Source: an uncultured Actinomycetes bacterium
GTDB lineage: Bacteria; Actinomycetota; Acidimicrobiia; Acidimicrobiales; RAAP-2
Direction: 5' to 3'
DNA length: 64,000 bases
Assembly: GCA_903874965.1 (NCBI GenBank)
Contig: CAIQUD010000004.1
Location: 1 to 64,000 of the forward strand
Each line of letters starts with the position of its first letter. Position 1 is the stretch's first letter. A program made the position numbers and the translations under genes. Positions 1-20,072 of this stretch are shown here, one piece after another. The notes beneath the pieces are model-generated. The model saw only the letters and a program-made list of their open reading frames with translations, made no database searches and was not told the origin of the DNA.

Positions 1-663
1 ATCGGTGGTGACAGTGTTGCCACCAGCGTCTTGGACCGTGAAGGCTGGCTGGGTGGTGAAGACCACACCACCAGTGCTCGACGATGGACTGGTTTTCAGA
101 ACCAGCTGAGATGCACTACCTGCAACGGAGAACGAACTTGAGGTTGCACTGGTCAAGACACCGTCGGTCGCGGTGAGCTGATATCCGGCGCCTGGCCCAA
201 CAATCTGACAACCACTGAAGGTAATGACGCCAAGGGTCTCGCTCTGGGTGCAGCCTGAAAGCGTTCCCGGGCCACCAGCAGTTGGGGTGCCTGGCGTGAT
301 GGACAAAGTTACGGTTGACACGTCCGTGGTCACGGTATTGCCGAGGACGTCGACAACTCGGATGACTGGCTGTTGGGCAAACGCGCTACCGCTGACTGAT
401 GCCGACGGAGAAGTAGACATGATGAGTTTGGTTCCATCGCCAGATACCCCAAAGGCCTGCGAACTGGCTGCCACCAGGCTTCCGTCATTTGCCAGTAGTA
501 CGTAACCAACACCAGTGACCGTGACCGTGCAGCCAGAAAAGGTAATGACGCCAAGGGTCTCACTCTGGGTGCAGCCTGAAAGCGTTCCCGGGCCACCAAT
601 GATTGGGCTGCCTGGAGCTATTGACAAGGTCACCAATGAAGCGTCGGTGGTCACAACATTGCC
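1..663 (-). repeat. 321-bp (107 aa) tandem coding repeat, at least two units plus a partial one
   Basis: Equivalent segments at 1-21, 322-342 and 643-663 (NTVTTD region), and near-identical gtaatgacgccaagggtct...ctctgggtgcagcctgaaagcgttcccgggccacca at 221 and 542; period exactly 321 bp. Confidence 0.85.
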
Positions 664-1500
664 AGAACTGTCTTGCACGGCAACCGATGGTTGTGTTGGA
701 AGAGGGAGTCCCGTACTCGCGTCAGTCGGTTGGGTGACAAACGCCAGCGCTGCGGCCACTCCAGTGTCAACGCTGAACGCCGTGGAGCCGCTGACAGAAG
801 GCGTGCCAACATCGGTAACAAGGAGCGAAGACGCCCCAACAAGACGCGGAACGAAACCGGTAGACGGAATAGCAATGCCGCTCGCAAAAGTAAGCGAGGC
901 CGATGGATACGTCGGAACCATTCCGTTTAGCCCCGGAGACAAGCCGGACCAAAGCACGGATTTAGGACCTATATAGGTGGTATCTACGACGCCTGAGAGT
1001 GTGGCGGACACTTGCGTCACACTGACTGGCACCCCGGCCGTGTAGGGACCAGGCGCCAGCGTCACTTCTAAGGTCGGTGTCGGCGTCGTCTTCGACACCG
1101 TGATCGGGGCGCTCACCCAGTTATACAAGGTTTCTGCAACGGAATAGGTATACGTCGTCGAAGGAGTGAGTCCTGTGTCCGCACAGGTCGCCGTCGGAGC
1201 GCTCACGCTGCAGATCACTTGTGAAGCTCCCGGCGAGGTGCGAGTCACCGTCACCTTGGCTCCAGTGACGGTCTGCGTAGTGTTCGCCCACGAGACGGAG
1301 ATTAAGCCGCTTCCGTTTGCGACGGCCATCGGCGACGTAGGAGACAACAAGGTCGCTGCTGCTCCTTGGGCAGTATTGGTGTTCGAGGCATCGGTCACGA
1401 TGAAGTAGGCAACCGCCACACCGCAACCAAACACCACGAGCGCAATCGCCCCAAGTGACAGGACGGACATTTTGGAAATCAAATGCTTGAAGAACCTCAT
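1..1500 (-). CDS. Secreted/surface protein with tandem Ig-like repeats; partial, continues beyond the window edge
   Basis: Reverse-complement reading from ATG at 1500 (MRFFKHLISKMSVLSLGAIALVVFGCGVAVAYF...) stays open to position 1 in frame; FN3-like segment, then repeats with GPGTLSGCTQSETLGVITFSGC. Missing from the ORF track because it runs off the edge. Confidence 0.85.
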   Translation of the reverse strand, partial: MRFFKHLISKMSVLSLGAIALVVFGCGVAVAYFIVTDASNTNTAQGAAATLLSPTSPMAVANGSGLISVSWANTTQTVTGAKVTVTRTSPGASQVICSVSAPTATCADTGLTPSTTYTYSVAETLYNWVSAPITVSKTTPTPTLEVTLAPGPYTAGVPVSVTQVSATLSGVVDTTYIGPKSVLWSGLSPGLNGMVPTYPSASLTFASGIAIPSTGFVPRLVGASSLLVTDVGTPSVSGSTAFSVDTGVAAALAFVTQPTDASTGLPLPTQPSVAVQDSSGNVVTTDASLVTLSIAPGSPIIGGPGTLSGCTQSETLGVITFSGCTVTVTGVGYVLLANDGSLVAASSQAFGVSGDGTKLIMSTSPSASVSGSAFAQQPVIRVVDVLGNTVTTDVSTVTLSITPGTPTAGGPGTLSGCTQSETLGVITFSGCQIVGPGAGYQLTATDGVLTSATSSSFSVAGSASQLVLKTSPSSSTGGVVFTTQPAFTVQDAGGNTVTTD

Positions 1501-1964
1501 GAGGTTCCTGAAGTGATCGCAACAGGGATTGAGAAGAGTGCGCCTTGGCAACCCGTTGGGGCAGTGCTCGCCATCGAAACCGCCGATGCAAGTCGCACCA
1601 AGGTGGTCGAATTTCCCGGAATTGGCAGCGCTACCGATGGCTGGTCGACAAAGGTCACGTTGGGCGTGTCACAACTTCCGATACCGCCCGTTGCCACAAT
1701 CGTTCCGTTGCCGGTAATCGAATGCAGCACAACCGGATAACTGTTTGGATTGCGGACTCGCAAAATAACTTCCGCCGTGCCCCCAGGTTGGAGTTGAGTA
1801 GCGGGGGCATCACCACCACTCACCGCCGCAACCGTCACCGCACTCATATTGCCCGTCAGCACCGTTGACGACCCTGCTCCTGAGGAGCTCAGAGCGGCCC
1901 ATGCAATACCAATGCCGGAGAGGAGCACCCAGGCACCAAGAACGAAGGCAAAACGCCGGCTCAT
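1497..1964 (-). CDS. Small secreted protein with signal/anchor segment and two-Cys beta-rich domain
   Basis: Likely start MSRRFAFVLGAWVLLSGIGIAWAALSSSG; ATGA overlaps with both neighbouring genes. Confidence 0.75.
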   Translation of the reverse strand: MSRRFAFVLGAWVLLSGIGIAWAALSSSGAGSSTVLTGNMSAVTVAAVSGGDAPATQLQPGGTAEVILRVRNPNSYPVVLHSITGNGTIVATGGIGSCDTPNVTFVDQPSVALPIPGNSTTLVRLASAVSMASTAPTGCQGALFSIPVAITSGTS

Positions 1965-3403
1965 CCTCGTGCCCTTGCGCTGACCACGAGGGACAAGGTC
2001 TGGTTGCGGCAACCATCTTGGTTAAACGCGGTATTGCGCATCGAAATCTTTGGCCAGCGAGAAATGTGGGACGAACTTGCCGAGAGATGGATGGTCGCAC
2101 CGCCTGGCACCACGATGTTGGTGCCAAGTGTCGACGAGACAGCGAAGTTGGTAGCCGCACACTGCGAGTTCGAAAGGATCGAGACGTTCAGGGAATTTCC
2201 GATCACAGAAATTGGCAACGTGTTCGGATTGGTGACGGTGAGGTCCAATGGGACTGTCACACCGGGACGTAACGTTCCAACGGCTTGGACGTCAATCTTG
2301 AAGGCCACTGACGTATACGCCGAAAGATCAATCGCCGTTGGTGCCAATGGTGAAGTCACCGATACAACAAATGGGCCAGAATTCGCATTCGGAGTGAATG
2401 GTGCGGTGATCGCAACGCCATACGCATCGGTACGAACGGTGCAGCTTTGACCATCGATTGCGGTAGTGATTGCGCATGGTGAGAAAACCCCTCCGGGCCC
2501 AATGGCTGGAGCAAGGAAGGTCACAGGTTGGTTTGACAACCCGACGCCATGTGCGTCCACCAACCGAATTGAGAACGGCCGACGCTTCGGTGCACCTGAG
2601 CTCAACTCCGTGACACCGCCACTTCGAGCGACAAGCCTTGCCGGGGTGATGAGCCAACAATACGAAGCTTGCTTGCTGACGTTGCCCGCCAGGTCAGTCG
2701 CCGCCACTGCAAAGCAGTGGGAACCAATCTCGAGCCCGTCATATTCCACTTCTGCTTGCACCGGGCCTGCGTCATGATCAGGGTCACCTGTGCATGGCGT
2801 CAGAGACGCACCATCGAGCCCACAAGAAAACGTCACCGCAGAACGACTTCCAAGTTTGATGCCAAAGTCAGCACTTCGCCGAGTCGTCTCTCGCTTCGGC
2901 GCTTCAAGAATGACAGGGACGCCAGGTGCGATTGAATCGATGACAAACGATGTAGAGGATTGAACAGTGCTGGAAAATCCACCAGGATTCGAATATCGCC
3001 CAGTCGCTACAACGAGGTAAGTGCCGTCGGCAGGACGCTTTGGTATCACCAAGCTCCAGGTCGAACCGGGTCGTACCGATATCGACCGAACTTTCGCAGC
3101 AACGAACGCATGCCCGTCGAAGTAGCGACGAGTGGCGCTGTTTTGGATCGACACCTGAAGTGCCGTCAGCGATGACGCCGCTGTCGCTGACCCACAGATG
3201 CCGGCTGGGTGACATGCCTGCTGCCAAGTGCCTGCATTGAAGATATTTGAGGAAGTTGGTTGGTTGATCGACAGCTTTGGGATACTTGACTCACCGAATG
3301 CGCGACTTGCGAATGCCAAAAACGTCACGACCAGCGCGACGACAAACAAGCCGACGGCGACTCTCACTTGCGTTCGGCGCAAATGCGCTCGCGTTTCCAT
3401 CAA
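1961..3403 (-). CDS. Secreted protein with bacterial Ig-like domains and C-terminal two-Cys domain
   Basis: 480 aa; N-terminal hydrophobic segment VAVGLFVVALVVTFLAFASRAFG; Ig-like segments; C-terminus TVTNPNTLPISVIG...SQCAATNF...FNQDGCRNQTLSLVV. Confidence 0.8.
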   Translation of the reverse strand: MMETRAHLRRTQVRVAVGLFVVALVVTFLAFASRAFGESSIPKLSINQPTSSNIFNAGTWQQACHPAGICGSATAASSLTALQVSIQNSATRRYFDGHAFVAAKVRSISVRPGSTWSLVIPKRPADGTYLVVATGRYSNPGGFSSTVQSSTSFVIDSIAPGVPVILEAPKRETTRRSADFGIKLGSRSAVTFSCGLDGASLTPCTGDPDHDAGPVQAEVEYDGLEIGSHCFAVAATDLAGNVSKQASYCWLITPARLVARSGGVTELSSGAPKRRPFSIRLVDAHGVGLSNQPVTFLAPAIGPGGVFSPCAITTAIDGQSCTVRTDAYGVAITAPFTPNANSGPFVVSVTSPLAPTAIDLSAYTSVAFKIDVQAVGTLRPGVTVPLDLTVTNPNTLPISVIGNSLNVSILSNSQCAATNFAVSSTLGTNIVVPGGATIHLSASSSHISRWPKISMRNTAFNQDGCRNQTLSLVVSARARG

Positions 3404-3469
3404 ATCTGCCGATCAGTGAGGGGACGACCATTGAAGCCCCGCGCAACGACATTGGATAAAGGCACGGAT

Positions 3470-3507
3470 GCAGTGCCGCCAGGCCCAATGAAGCCTGACG
3501 GCACTGC
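3470..3507 (-). terminator. Strong stem-loop between the first secreted-protein gene and its downstream partners (terminator/attenuator or processing element)
   Basis: gcagtgccgccaggc (3470-3484) / gcctgacggcactgc (3493-3507): 15-bp inverted repeat with one mismatch, 8-nt loop; no clear T-tract. Confidence 0.6.
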
Positions 3508-3521
3508 CACCAGAGTGCTAC

Positions 3522-4085
3522 TTAGCTTGCGGCGATGAAAAGCGGAACTGTTGCAGCTTGGCAACTGTCTTGATTCGCGCTGTTGTCAATCATCTGAAGG
3601 GTAACGGTGCCGCTGTATACCTGACCAGGGGTGAGGTCAACATTCGGGTGGATGGTGAAAGAGCCTGAGCCTGCGGTGATGCCATCACCGACGGCTGAAC
3701 CACCAACCGAGAAGTCGTGTGAGCTGCAAGCTGGATTTGCTCCAACGGTCTTCGTCCAGTTTGTCTCGACGAGCGAAGGCGAGGTGCCTGTGGAACTTCC
3801 GACGGAGATGACGACCGAGGAAAGATACTGATTTCCTGCGCTTGGGTTCGTCACGGTGTAACTCACCGTGTCTTTGACGCCGGTACCAATTGTCGATGAC
3901 GGAACGAGGTCACCGGAGGTAACCGCTGGTGCAGAGACGGTGAACGCAGTACTGGTACCGGTTGTCGCCGATCCCGTTCCTTGCCCGGTTGACGTGAAGT
4001 ATGCGTAGGCAACTCCTGAAATGCCGAGGACAGCGACGGAAGCGACGCTGACCACCGCTGTCTTCTTAAAGGTAAAGCGCTTCAT
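3522..4085 (-). CDS. Secreted TasA/camelysin-like protein (SipW-type signal region), putative major subunit
   Basis: MKRFTFKKTAVVSVASVAVLGISGVAYAYFTSTGQGTGSA; C-terminal ...NPACSSHDF...NQDSCQAATVPLFIAAS. Start chosen at internal ATG 4085. Confidence 0.7.
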   Translation of the reverse strand: MKRFTFKKTAVVSVASVAVLGISGVAYAYFTSTGQGTGSATTGTSTAFTVSAPAVTSGDLVPSSTIGTGVKDTVSYTVTNPSAGNQYLSSVVISVGSSTGTSPSLVETNWTKTVGANPACSSHDFSVGGSAVGDGITAGSGSFTIHPNVDLTPGQVYSGTVTLQMIDNSANQDSCQAATVPLFIAAS

Positions 4086-4293: not shown

Positions 4294-4938
4294 TTAGCGC
4301 TTACCGTACTTCGCGTTGTGCCCCTTGACCGCTTGATAGCGGTGGCGGTAGAAGACCACGAGTGCAACGAAGACTGCTGCTGCAACGAGGTAACCGGCGT
4401 AGCTGAAGCCCTTCACCGTTGACTGGTACGTGGCTGCCGCGTTGTAGCCAATCGTTGTCAGCACGGAAACCCAAACTGCGACACCGATTGTGGTGAGGAC
4501 TGTGAAGCTGAGCGGGTTCATTTCAGCAATACCGGCAGGTAGCGAAATGAAGGTTCGAATGACCGGCACGACCCGTCCGACAAGCACCGTGACCCCTCCA
4601 CGCTTGGCAAACCAGGCTTCAGATTTGTCGAGATCTGCGTGGCTCAACAAGATGTACTTTCCGTATTTTTCGACGACGCTCCGTCCAAGAGTGCGACCGA
4701 CTCCGTAGGCGAGCAGCGAACCGATCAGCGAGCCAAGAACTCCGACCATGATGACCGCCCAAATTTGCAAGTGCTTTGCATCGGCATTCGAACCATCAGC
4801 GAAGAAGGCGGTAGAGCAGAGCGCTCCGCCGAGACCGAAGGTCAGCTCCGATGGAATTGGAATGCAGGCGGACTCAAGAATCGCAAAGATGAAAAGTGCG
4901 GCATAGCCGTAGTGGAGAAGGAAGGAAGTCACCATCAT
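4294..4938 (-). CDS. DedA/SNARE-associated family membrane protein
   Basis: ESACIPIPSELTFGLGGAL..., GRTLGRSVVEKYGKY, GRVVPVIRTFISLPAGIAEM are typical DedA motifs. Confidence 0.9.
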   Translation of the reverse strand: MMVTSFLLHYGYAALFIFAILESACIPIPSELTFGLGGALCSTAFFADGSNADAKHLQIWAVIMVGVLGSLIGSLLAYGVGRTLGRSVVEKYGKYILLSHADLDKSEAWFAKRGGVTVLVGRVVPVIRTFISLPAGIAEMNPLSFTVLTTIGVAVWVSVLTTIGYNAAATYQSTVKGFSYAGYLVAAAVFVALVVFYRHRYQAVKGHNAKYGKR

Positions 4939-5016
4939 GTTCTAGCCGACGGCATAGCCCTCTCAATGGAACCCACACCATGTGCGTGGCAAAGAGCAAT
5001 TCTCTAGAGTGGCGTC

Positions 5017-6522
5017 ATGACCGACCTGTTCTCGATCCTCGATGAGGATCACTCACGGCGCCTTTCAGCTGCAGCACTCGAAGCTGCAGCGGCCGCAGGA
5101 GCCTCGCATACGCAAGTTCGAGTGGAGTCGATCCGCTCGCAAGAGGTAGGGCTTCGCGATGCAGCACTCGAGTCGTCAAGCGACTCAACCGAGTTTGGCG
5201 TCGGCGTTCGAGTGCTCGTCGATGGTGTCTTCGGCTTTGCCGCAACGGTTGAGCGTGAAGTTGACGACATCGCCAATCTCGCTCGACGAGCCGTGGCAAC
5301 CGCAAGGGCCGTTGCACGAGCACAGCGAAGAGCAGTGGAACTCGCCGCTGAGCCAAGTCACGGTGAAGTTCGATGGTCCTCCCCTTATCGGATCGATCCA
5401 ACGTCGGTGAGCCTTGCTGAGAAGGTTGAACTGCTCGAACGTTGGAGCCGACAGATTCTTGCGGTGGACGGTATTTCTCACGTCAGTGCCAACGTCATGT
5501 GTGTTTCCGAAGAGAAGCACTATGCAGATTCATCAGGAACAACTGCCTTTCAGCGTCGGGTTCGACTCCAGCCAGCCGTGGAAGCCATCGCAACTCATGA
5601 CACGGCCGGATTCGAATCCATGAGGACCGTGGCACCTCCTGTTGGACGCGGCTGGGAGTACCTCCTTGGCGAGGGATGGGACTTCGAAGCCGAACTGGCA
5701 AAACTCCCGTCGGACTTGCTCGAGAAGTTGCACTCCCCTTCGGTCGAGGCGGGTCGCTACGACCTCGTCGTTGACCCAACCAACTTGTGGCTAACCATCC
5801 ACGAGTCCATTGGGCACGCAACGGAACTCGACAGGGCGCTCGGTTACGAGGCGGCCTACGCAGGCACGTCGTTTGCAACACCAGACAAACTCGGAACCTT
5901 GCGCTACGGATCAAGCATCATGAATGTCACGGGAGACCGGACCGCGGAATATGGCCTTGCGACCACAGCGATCGATGACGAAGGCGTTGCGGGGCAATCC
6001 TTCGATCTCATTCGAGATGGCGTTCTTGTTGGCTACCAATTGGACCGAGCTACGGCTTCGGTCGCAGGGAGAGATCGCTCCAATGGATGCGCGTATGCCG
6101 ACTCTCCGCTCCATGTGCCGATTCAGCGCATGGCCAATGTCTCACTTCAACCGGCTCCCGGTGATGGCCCATCAACCGAAGAACTGATTGCTCGAGTTGA
6201 TCGAGGGATCTATGTCGTTGGCGACAAGAGTTGGTCGATTGACATGCAGCGCTACAACTTCCAATTCACCGGCCAGCGCTTCTACCGAATTGAAAAGGGT
6301 GCACTCGTCGGACAATTGCGTGACGTTGCCTACCAGGCCACCACGACTGATTTCTGGGGCTCAATGGAAGCAGTTGGCGGCAAACAGACCTATCTCCTTG
6401 CCGGCGCCTTCAATTGTGGAAAGGGCCAACCGGGCCAAGTTGCTCCAGTGAGCCACGGGTGCCCAAGTGCACTTGTTCGTAATGTTGCAATCCTCAATGC
6501 ACGGTCAGAAGGTGGACGATGA
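5017..6522 (+). CDS. tldD: TldD-like metalloprotease
   Basis: 501 aa; HEXXXH motif IHESIGHATELD; C-terminal GKGQPGQVAPVSHGCP. Confidence 0.92.
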   Translation: MTDLFSILDEDHSRRLSAAALEAAAAAGASHTQVRVESIRSQEVGLRDAALESSSDSTEFGVGVRVLVDGVFGFAATVEREVDDIANLARRAVATARAVARAQRRAVELAAEPSHGEVRWSSPYRIDPTSVSLAEKVELLERWSRQILAVDGISHVSANVMCVSEEKHYADSSGTTAFQRRVRLQPAVEAIATHDTAGFESMRTVAPPVGRGWEYLLGEGWDFEAELAKLPSDLLEKLHSPSVEAGRYDLVVDPTNLWLTIHESIGHATELDRALGYEAAYAGTSFATPDKLGTLRYGSSIMNVTGDRTAEYGLATTAIDDEGVAGQSFDLIRDGVLVGYQLDRATASVAGRDRSNGCAYADSPLHVPIQRMANVSLQPAPGDGPSTEELIARVDRGIYVVGDKSWSIDMQRYNFQFTGQRFYRIEKGALVGQLRDVAYQATTTDFWGSMEAVGGKQTYLLAGAFNCGKGQPGQVAPVSHGCPSALVRNVAILNARSEGGR

Positions 6523-7904
6523 GCAGCCTGATTCCTGCTGATGTGGTGATTGAACAAGGCCTCAAGGCTCTCGGCAGCGATCGCGGCATCGTGATTGTTC
6601 GAGATGGCAGTCAGGCAGAGATTCGATTCGCCAACAACACCGTCACCACCAATGGTGTGCGGCGGTCAAGAGATGTAACCGTGATTGCGGTCGTCAATCG
6701 CGAAGGTGGGGTTGCCACGGGAATTGCATCTCGATCCGGCGACGTCGACATTGTTTCCCTGGTCAATGCTGCCAAGGCGGAAGCTTCAACCGCACCGCTT
6801 TCAACTGATGCCTTTGCCTTTGTCGAAGCAATCGTCGACGCCGACTTTGAGGCCCCGCCTGCCATCAATGACCTCGACATTCTCGATCCAGTGCTCGGAG
6901 GTCTCGGTGCCTCAATGGAGAAGGCCGAAGATCGTGGCGTCACCTTGGCCGGTTTCGCTGAACACGCGCTTGAGACCATTTCCGTTGGCTCTACGAGCGG
7001 GCTCAGGCGTCGTCATGTGCAACCAACGGGCGCGTTCCAGCTCGTGGGCAGAGCTGACGGGGGCAAGCGGTCCTCATGGGTGGGCATGGCAACGCCTGAT
7101 TTCAAGGACGTCAACCTCGACCATATTGAGGAGAACCTCTATCGTCGCCTCGAGTGGGCAACCAAGCAACTCGAGTTCCCAGCGGGAAGATACGAGACGC
7201 TGCTCCCATCAAGCGCCGTAGCTGACCTCACTGCATTCGCCGTGTGGATGGCCGGTGGCCAAGACTCAGAAGACGGCGGCACGGTGTTCTCGAAGACTGG
7301 CGGTGGAACACGAATTGGCGAGAAGCTCAGCACCTTGCCGTTCTCGGTGCGATCCAATCCATTCGAAAAGGGACTCGAGGCCCTTCCTTTTGTGGTGGCT
7401 CGATCATCGAGCGCCGCAGAGTCCGTCTTCGATAACGGGCTCAGCTTGGCGCCCACGTCATGGATCGAAAATGGCACACTCACCAATCTCCACTATCACC
7501 GAGCGGGAGCGGCCAGAAGCGGTCGGCCGGCGACTCCACCAATCGACAACTTGATTGTTGAGGTTCCAGGAGCAACTGGCACGATCGACGACATGATCAA
7601 GAACACTGAACGAGCACTCCTCGTCACCTGTCTTTGGTACATCCGAGTCGTCGACCCCACCACGCTGCTCGTAACTGGGCTCACCCGCGATGGTGTCTAC
7701 CTCGTTGAGAATGGGTCGGTCGTTGGCCAAGTGAACAACTTCCGTTTCAACGAGAGCCCAATCGACATGCTCGCTCGATCAACCGAAGCTGGAGCTCCGA
7801 GCCGAACTTTGGCCCGAGAATTCGGCGAATACCTCAATCGTGCAGCAACGTGCCCACTTCGGGTAGCCGACTTCAACATGAGTTCGGTTTCCCAAGCGAG
7901 TTAA
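6519..7904 (+). CDS. tldE: TldE/PmbA-family protein
   Basis: Follows tldD with a 4-nt ATGA overlap; PmbA/TldD family sequence. Confidence 0.88.
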   Translation: MSSLIPADVVIEQGLKALGSDRGIVIVRDGSQAEIRFANNTVTTNGVRRSRDVTVIAVVNREGGVATGIASRSGDVDIVSLVNAAKAEASTAPLSTDAFAFVEAIVDADFEAPPAINDLDILDPVLGGLGASMEKAEDRGVTLAGFAEHALETISVGSTSGLRRRHVQPTGAFQLVGRADGGKRSSWVGMATPDFKDVNLDHIEENLYRRLEWATKQLEFPAGRYETLLPSSAVADLTAFAVWMAGGQDSEDGGTVFSKTGGGTRIGEKLSTLPFSVRSNPFEKGLEALPFVVARSSSAAESVFDNGLSLAPTSWIENGTLTNLHYHRAGAARSGRPATPPIDNLIVEVPGATGTIDDMIKNTERALLVTCLWYIRVVDPTTLLVTGLTRDGVYLVENGSVVGQVNNFRFNESPIDMLARSTEAGAPSRTLAREFGEYLNRAATCPLRVADFNMSSVSQAS

Positions 7905-17736: not shown

Positions 17737-18879
17737 ATGAGTGACAAGAACCTTGAGGAAGGTCTTACCGAACGAGGTAAAACCTGGGCGTCCACCATGG
17801 GTGGCTATGCCCCAAGTCCAGAGATTCGCGTGGCCCACTCGGACTCTTCGGCGGTTTTTCAACCCTTAGCCAATGATCGAGACCGGAGGATTTTGGCGGA
17901 AGGTCAGCTCTTGGCGGTCGGCGCAACCGCATCAAGCGCTCACGGCACACGGGCCAGGGAAGAAGAGCCCGATGGATGGAGGACGTGCTTTGAGCGTGAC
18001 CGAGACCGGATTCTTCACGCCGCTGCCTTCCGACGACTTGCGGGAAAGACGCAGGTCTTCGTGTATCCCGAAGATCACCAGCGGACTCGCCTCACCCATG
18101 CCTTGGAAGTTGCGCAGGTCGCAACGGGTATCGCACGGGCGCTTGCGCTCAACGTTGCCCTCACTGAGGCCATCGCGTTGGGGCATGACTGTGGCCATGG
18201 TCCAGGCGGCCATGCCAGCGAAGATGCGCTCGATCCATACGTCGACGGTGGATTCAACCACGCCCAATGGGGAGCAGATGTCACGCTGGCGCCACTCAAT
18301 CTGTGCGTAGAGACCTTGGATGGGATCCGAAACCACTCGTGGTCACGTCCTGCCCCATCAACCCCAGAGGGTGAAGTGGTGTCATGGGCCGACCGGATCG
18401 CCTATGTCTGTCATGACTTTGAAGACGCCGTTGGTGCAGGAATCGTCGCACCAGGGCAACTGCCGTCCTTAGTGACCGAGCGCTGTGGATTGACGAGATC
18501 AAGCCAACTTGGCACCTTCGTCCAAGCAGTCATCGCCACGTCACTCAACTCAGGTCAAATTGGCATGGACCCAGACACCGCAGAAGCACTGGCGGCATTT
18601 CGCCGACACAACTACGAGCAGATCTACCTCCGCGATGCCGCAAAGGCGCAAGCGAACGCGGTTGTTGAGGTCCTCCGGGCGCTCGTCGAGCACTTCAGCG
18701 ACAGCCCAAATCTGATTCCCGATGTGGTGGCGATTGGCGGACTTCACGCAGGCGAGTCTGCTGCGGTCATGGCGTCCGTCAACTACGTCGCTGGCATGAC
18801 GGACCGATTCGCGTTTCGAACTGCCGTCAGCCAGCTCGGTTGGGATCCCGCACGATTGCCCAAGAGCATCATTGGCTGA
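17737..18879 (+). CDS. dgt: dGTPase-like HD-domain nucleotide triphosphohydrolase
   Basis: RRLAGKTQVFVYPEDHQRTRLTHALEVAQVATGIARAL, GHDCGHGPGGHASEDAL. Confidence 0.9.
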   Translation: MSDKNLEEGLTERGKTWASTMGGYAPSPEIRVAHSDSSAVFQPLANDRDRRILAEGQLLAVGATASSAHGTRAREEEPDGWRTCFERDRDRILHAAAFRRLAGKTQVFVYPEDHQRTRLTHALEVAQVATGIARALALNVALTEAIALGHDCGHGPGGHASEDALDPYVDGGFNHAQWGADVTLAPLNLCVETLDGIRNHSWSRPAPSTPEGEVVSWADRIAYVCHDFEDAVGAGIVAPGQLPSLVTERCGLTRSSQLGTFVQAVIATSLNSGQIGMDPDTAEALAAFRRHNYEQIYLRDAAKAQANAVVEVLRALVEHFSDSPNLIPDVVAIGGLHAGESAAVMASVNYVAGMTDRFAFRTAVSQLGWDPARLPKSIIG

Positions 18880-18947
18880 CACTGGTAGTCGACCTTCGAA
18901 CGTGGTCGAGAGATCTTGGCGCGTTGAACGCTTCGACCTAGTGAGAA

Positions 18948-20072
18948 TCAGCTGAGTTTCAGTTCCTGTCGGTACACACGAGCTGGACCCTGCGCCACGA
19001 TCTTCGTCGCCAACTGGTCAAACGCAACTGAAGCGTCGGAGGTTGGATCAACAACGGTGATCGGCAGTCCCTCATCGCCACCAGAACGAAGGGCAGGCAC
19101 AAGAGGAATCTGGGCGAGCAATGGAATACCGAGATCCTCCGCCAAGGTCTGACCGCCACCTTCGCCAAAGAGTTCATAACGCTTGCCGTCATCGCCGGTA
19201 AAGAAGCTCATGTTCTCAATGACGCCTCGAACGGAAAGCTTCAACTTCCGTGCGGCATATGCCGAACGTTGTGCCACTCGTTGTGCTGCAGCCTGCGGAG
19301 TCGTCACCACGTAGATCTCGACCTTTGGGACTACTTGACTCAAGGTGAGGGCCACGTCTCCAGTCCCAGGCGGCATGTCAATAAGGAGGTAGTCAACCGG
19401 TCCCCAGAACGCATCACCAAAGAACTGCTCAATGGTCTTGTGCAGCATCGGACCTCGCCAGATCACTGGCTGGTCTTCTGGCACGAAAAAGCCCATCGAG
19501 AGGCACCGCACGCCGTGGGTTGACGTCGGAATCACCATGTCGGCGAGCACGACTGGATCGTGATCGCACCCAAGCATCTTCGGAATTGAGAAGCCATAGA
19601 CGTCGGCATCAAGGATGGCGACGTTTTTTCCTAACTTCGACAAGGCAATCGCAAGGTTGACCGTGACCGACGACTTGCCAACGCCACCCTTGCCGGAAGA
19701 AATTCCGAGAATGCGGGTCGGTGAATCCGACTTCAGGATCTTGGGTGATGGGTCATTGTGATGGTGACCCTCGTGCTCATCTTCCATCTGAGCGCGCAGG
19801 GCATGGCGAAGCGTCAACCGCTCGTCATCAGTCATCGTCGCCTGGAGGACTACGGAACCCGGAAATCCAAGTTCGCTCAGAAGTGACCGAACCGCACCTG
19901 TGACGGCGTCAGCGGTTGGCCAAGCCCCAATCGGAAATGCAAGGGTGACTTCAGCTGAACCCTTCTTGACCGACAGCGCACGGAGGTAACCCAACTCACC
20001 AATCGGAAGCGTGAGTTCTGGATCGATGATCGCACCGAGCTGGGTAGACAACGGGACGTCGTTGGTGTCCAT
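18948..20072 (-). CDS. mrp: Mrp/NBP35-family ATP-binding Fe-S cluster carrier
   Basis: SSGKGGVGKSSVTVNLA, DADVYGFSIPKMLG, DMPPGTGDVALTLSQ. Confidence 0.93.
   Translation of the reverse strand: MDTNDVPLSTQLGAIIDPELTLPIGELGYLRALSVKKGSAEVTLAFPIGAWPTADAVTGAVRSLLSELGFPGSVVLQATMTDDERLTLRHALRAQMEDEHEGHHHNDPSPKILKSDSPTRILGISSGKGGVGKSSVTVNLAIALSKLGKNVAILDADVYGFSIPKMLGCDHDPVVLADMVIPTSTHGVRCLSMGFFVPEDQPVIWRGPMLHKTIEQFFGDAFWGPVDYLLIDMPPGTGDVALTLSQVVPKVEIYVVTTPQAAAQRVAQRSAYAARKLKLSVRGVIENMSFFTGDDGKRYELFGEGGGQTLAEDLGIPLLAQIPLVPALRSGGDEGLPITVVDPTSDASVAFDQLATKIVAQGPARVYRQELKLS

Follow-up and report, generated by a model that had tools for sequence, protein, structure and literature searches.

Three adjacent genes in an uncultured Actinomycetes bacterium (Acidimicrobiales; RAAP-2) encode secreted proteins that share a two-cysteine domain, which raises the question of what, if anything, these proteins build at the cell surface. 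We analysed a window of 64,000 nucleotides that begins at base 1 of its contig (C4; CAIQUD010000004.1), in a genome of 2.03 Mb that is 85% complete. The original prediction had described three consecutive minus-strand genes with NP, Cys and Cys motifs, followed by a fourth gene for an Ig-repeat protein. All three open reading frames and the quoted motifs were confirmed; so was the fourth gene, although the contig end cuts it short (Table 1). The genes run leftward, with a spacing of 121 nt between maj and ig and with ATGA overlaps joining the ig stop to the small start and the small stop to the fn3 start. All four proteins have secretion signals and, by sequence, three carry one homologous two-Cys domain; in maj, the signal peptide is likely cleaved between AYA and YF. 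Searches of Pfam and NCBIfam with the four proteins gave zero matches above cut-off; the match of the window's fn3 protein to the FN3 domain was sub-threshold, while that of its relative in locus L076 was above cut-off. The cassette was not described in the literature searched, which was largely open access.

Table 1 Features of the cassette and their positions in the window
Feature	Position	Strand	Description
maj	3522-4085	-	187 aa; signal peptide, Gly/Ser/Thr tail, two-Cys beta domain (C120, C175); putative major subunit
N-terminal tail of mature maj	3951-4001	-	YFTSTGQGTGSATTGTS; conserved, modelled as disordered; candidate assembly element
RNA hairpin	3470-3507	-	15-52 nt past the maj stop; 17-bp stem, U-tract absent
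ig	1961-3400	-	479 aa; secreted, Ig-type; candidate anchor or terminal subunit
Shared two-Cys domain of ig	1964-2311	-	Residues 364-479; C414, C464
small	1497-1964	-	155 aa; signal, tail and domain layout as in maj; C98, C139; candidate initiator or cap
fn3	1-1500	-	Signal peptide, FN3-like domain, Ig-type repeats; cut by contig end; candidate adhesin

The shared domain is ~110-130 aa long and carries the motif L.PG.....v.v.NPN....V, which is followed by the first Cys and, close to the C-terminus, the second. NQD precedes the second Cys in most maj and several ig proteins, and QGA.F follows it in small. BLAST among the window's own domain copies was weak (best pairs E 0.001-0.03). Profile-profile comparison bore out the proposed duplication of a two-Cys beta domain common to maj, ig and small, with probabilities of 94-99% and Cys aligned with Cys: maj/small reached 98.9% (E 1.8e-17), small/ig 97.0% and maj/ig 94.2%, and enlarged alignments gave 98.8%, 97.5% and 97.7%, respectively. 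The window's maj was also matched by a model built from small (E 1e-7). Both cysteines occupy the same alignment columns across the three proteins and are invariant in 49 aligned copies (26/26 small relatives, 16/16 maj and 7/7 ig), and the mature domain has no further cysteines, except in two maj proteins carrying an extra domain. Because both cysteines are invariant, we infer, from this invariance rather than from coordinates, that a disulfide joins them.

AlphaFold2 modelled an all-beta domain for both small (mean pLDDT 83.9, 9 strands) and maj (pLDDT 68.6, moderate only), and the shared domain is predicted to fold as a beta-sandwich. The equivalence of the cysteines, which the original prediction had put up for checking, holds in these two models, because the secondary structure strings of both put the two residues in loops: that of the first Cys precedes a short strand, and that of the second links the long strand late in the domain to those at its end. 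Foldseek searches of the PDB with the maj and small models returned nothing at E<=0.001, only weak generic beta-sandwich matches, and PDB sequence searches with the cassette proteins gave no convincing match. PapD-like domains were among the top matches to the small model, with E of at least 0.015. For the maj model, the highest TM-score over the query among the 50 matches listed belonged to the TasA fibre 8aur (0.40/0.29, E 0.1, from a moderate model of pLDDT 68.6).

The genes had been expected to occur together in relatives, and gene order is indeed conserved in other genera. The small model matches 29/173 genomes of the family and 0/4 congeneric genomes, and the closest relatives with the cassette are Acidimicrobiaceae MAGs. 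Scanning a single genome for each species yielded 29 loci, 27 of which were convincing; those 27 are all from Actinomycetota and include Arthrobacter, Paenarthrobacter, Amycolatopsis, Actinomycetospora, Actinoplanes and Geodermatophilus. Two weak planctomycete matches (L098, L099) were rejected, with zero matches to the family models. In an even sample across the phylum, small was present in 12/298 genomes, 10 of these 12 having a neighbouring second domain copy, and plasmid searches matched one unannotated Arthrobacter replicon. Various Acidimicrobiaceae, and also Arthrobacter, have the genes in the order maj-ig-small-fn3, which is conserved across genera and classes. The full set is present in the window, L006, L051, L053, L055, L057, L072, L076, L077, L089 and L135 (fn3 assigned by eye in L072 and L077), from a locus set that counts some assemblies twice, under G handles and names. 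Several loci, such as L056, L060 and L132, have no ig, and some consist of small alone. The flanks vary, with groEL beside the cassette in L054, L055 and L057. A DedA-type gene flanks the cassette in the window, where two adjoining plus-strand genes outside the cassette (5017-7904) look by eye like a TldD/PmbA protease pair.

In a quick tree of 52 domains, the copies clustered by gene position and not by species (2 label changes versus 24.3 in shuffles). Support was moderate (93 for ig, 61 for small), and the Pseudonocardiaceae maj domains grouped with small. This clustering by gene position argues that the domain duplication probably predates the spread of the cassette, which is gained or lost largely as one unit. 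The cassette is real, conserved and nameless in the libraries searched.

What division of labour might these genes encode? The designation of maj as the putative major subunit agrees with its codon bias and its downstream hairpin. Codon adaptation of maj is 0.647, exceeding 45 of the 50 open reading frames in the window (median 0.587), and ig (0.552), small (0.584) and fn3 (0.575) all fall under that median. The 81-nt fold of the hairpin has an energy of -41.5 kcal/mol (z -4.6). A strong stem, i.e., one matched by at most 1/100 shuffles, follows maj at 14/27 loci versus 16/220 control genes, a rough comparison as the controls are mechanical open reading frames. Together, the high codon adaptation and the hairpin suggest that maj is made in excess. 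High predicted expression of maj might also be expected of a surface layer, sheath or hydrophobin-like (BslA-like) coat in place of a fibre, and BslA is among the weak matches to both the maj and small models; these matches, however, have a probability of only 0.18, and we regard such a coat as highly improbable.

The N-terminal tail is common to maj and small only; in ig the domain comes with no such tail. In both models the N-terminal 14-17 residues are disordered, with pLDDT <50 over residues 1-17 of maj. The maj tail is more conserved than its domain (relative entropy 2.06 versus 1.55 bits), and in small the two are similar (1.83 versus 1.94 bits). Genomes of genus g10 and G021 (L065-L070) have a divergent small subfamily, in which a TNWxVGLxAGSS-like tail replaces the YFTSTGxG tail, and L131 contains an additional two-Cys copy between small and fn3 (4601-5116), with no AYF-type tail seen. 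LPxTG motifs were found in the ig of two relatives, as LPVTG with a membrane segment in Arthrobacter E3 (L089) and as LPFTG in L134, which points to ig as the candidate wall-proximal component. No LPxTG or pilin motif was found in the maj, ig and small sequences of the window.

These features could also describe related Ig-type adhesins, secreted or wall-bound, that never polymerise and cover the cell singly or in small complexes, in which case the tail would be a mere linker. The maj/small tail is rich in Gly, Ser and Thr and could be a plain flexible linker, the models are generic beta-sandwiches whose fold matches are not significant, and FN3/Ig repeats with LPxTG fit adhesins. However, three homologous copies in a fixed order, a tail restricted to maj and small, and a codon-biased maj with a downstream hairpin are together better accommodated by unequal subunits of one assembly, and we consider independent adhesins rather unlikely.

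Alternatively, the proteins might constitute a divergent TasA/camelysin branch matured by a SipW-type peptidase. The AYF leader is like SipW-type leaders, and two relatives gave isolated weak, sub-threshold matches to PF12389 (E 0.0026 and 0.039). L006 has a partial SipW-like gene immediately upstream of maj, and in L077 (Arthrobacter NtRootA1) genes for a TasA-like protein and a SipW-type peptidase lie ~9 kb away from the cassette (18323-19984). By contrast, the window proteins had no match to PF12389, NF046066 (E<=10) or TIGR04088, and hhalign against three TasA-like proteins scored maj at only 14.5% and small at 3.5%. A SipW-type peptidase was above cut-off in only 4/22 other cassette genomes. 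We therefore rejected both TasA-family membership, for which the family models and hhalign give no link, and the SipW dependence hinted at by the AYF leader, L006 and L077, as 18/22 cassette genomes have no such enzyme above cut-off; the explanation as a whole is improbable. Given how few cassette genomes encode a SipW-type peptidase, an ordinary signal peptidase probably suffices at the AYA/YF site. The window's own genome has a SipW-type enzyme. Elsewhere in this genome (L009; G000:C19, 644-3256), a SipW-type peptidase lies beside two TasA/camelysin-like proteins, one of them above the PF12389 cut-off. The SipW-like gene of L006 (6636-7034, corresponding to L071 7895-8293) looks truncated or frameshifted, because its open frame covers the C-terminal part only.

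The cassette layout suggests a putative secreted surface fibre. The fibre-type reading of the original prediction stands in part: it is favoured by the two-Cys domain, the conserved gene set, the major-subunit look of maj and the LPxTG motif that some relatives have in one component, and the fibre itself stays putative. Our best explanation, on which we are evenly divided between acceptance and doubt, is that the cassette specifies proteins which are secreted and assemble at the cell surface of Actinomycetota, working in the manner of TasA/TapA filaments in Bacillus, with relatedness not implied. TasA fibres are linked through an N-terminal donor strand (PMC9674648), and TapA is a disulfide-bonded Ig domain with an N-terminus like that of TasA, which initiates filaments (PMC10151520). 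The cassette would follow a similar plan, with the maj tail repeated in small and missing from ig. The cassette proteins would exit by Sec and be cut by an ordinary type I signal peptidase, and each two-Cys domain would be locked by its disulfide. In this scheme maj, in excess, would polymerise, probably by means of the exposed tail at its N-terminus, small would begin or cap the polymer, the tail-less ig would occupy the wall-proximal end, and the fn3 repeat protein would provide an adhesive or spacer part. We infer polymerisation, strand exchange, the disulfide and anchoring from anatomy. More tentatively, the cassette may define an undescribed class of actinobacterial filament, in which a disulfide-locked two-Cys domain and tail-mediated assembly operate without SipW or sortase polymerisation and in which anchor, initiator and FN3 adhesin are encoded in one cassette.

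To our knowledge, few actinobacterial surface filaments are known beyond sortase-built and type IV pili. If the TasA/TapA-like explanation is true, filaments would be built in this manner in a further phylum too, from another family of subunits; if it is wrong, the cassette is still an uncharacterised conserved surface-protein family. As this gene set, with its apparent division of labour, is present in cultured soil Arthrobacter, the idea is testable in laboratory strains.

How does the cassette compare with known systems? Type IV pili were rejected, as maj and small have a Gly/Ser/Thr tail after a Sec-type signal and models with no helix of at least 4 residues. The sortase-assembled (SpaA-type) pili of actinobacteria are likewise Gram-positive surface structures with major and minor subunits, and one cassette component has LPxTG in some relatives. 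Unlike SpaA-type subunits, however, maj lacks LPxTG and a pilin motif, LPxTG is on ig in two loci only, and the cassette contains no sortase gene, the sortase matches of its own genome being on other contigs. Chaperone-usher pili, with their incomplete-Ig subunits and N-terminal donor strand, would be a mechanistic parallel, but no chaperone or usher gene was seen and an outer-membrane pathway is not expected. Archaeal bundling pili and thread filaments are also built of small secreted beta-sandwich subunits, which join by an N-terminal strand, and the threads are proposed to exit by Sec and signal peptidase I. These belong to another domain of life, no sequence link to them was found, and the cassette differs in its invariant Cys pair and FN3 partner.

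The cassette differs from the TasA/TapA/SipW system of Bacillus, and from TasA/CalY/CapP in B. cereus, in that its proteins are not matched by the models for TasA, camelysin or SipW leaders, its genomes usually lack the SipW-type peptidase, its shared domain has two invariant cysteines, and its ig and fn3 proteins are extra. The likeness to these systems would lie in a set of few genes, among them those for an abundant, sortase-independent subunit and for an Ig-type accessory protein that has a disulfide and an N-terminus similar to that of the subunit.
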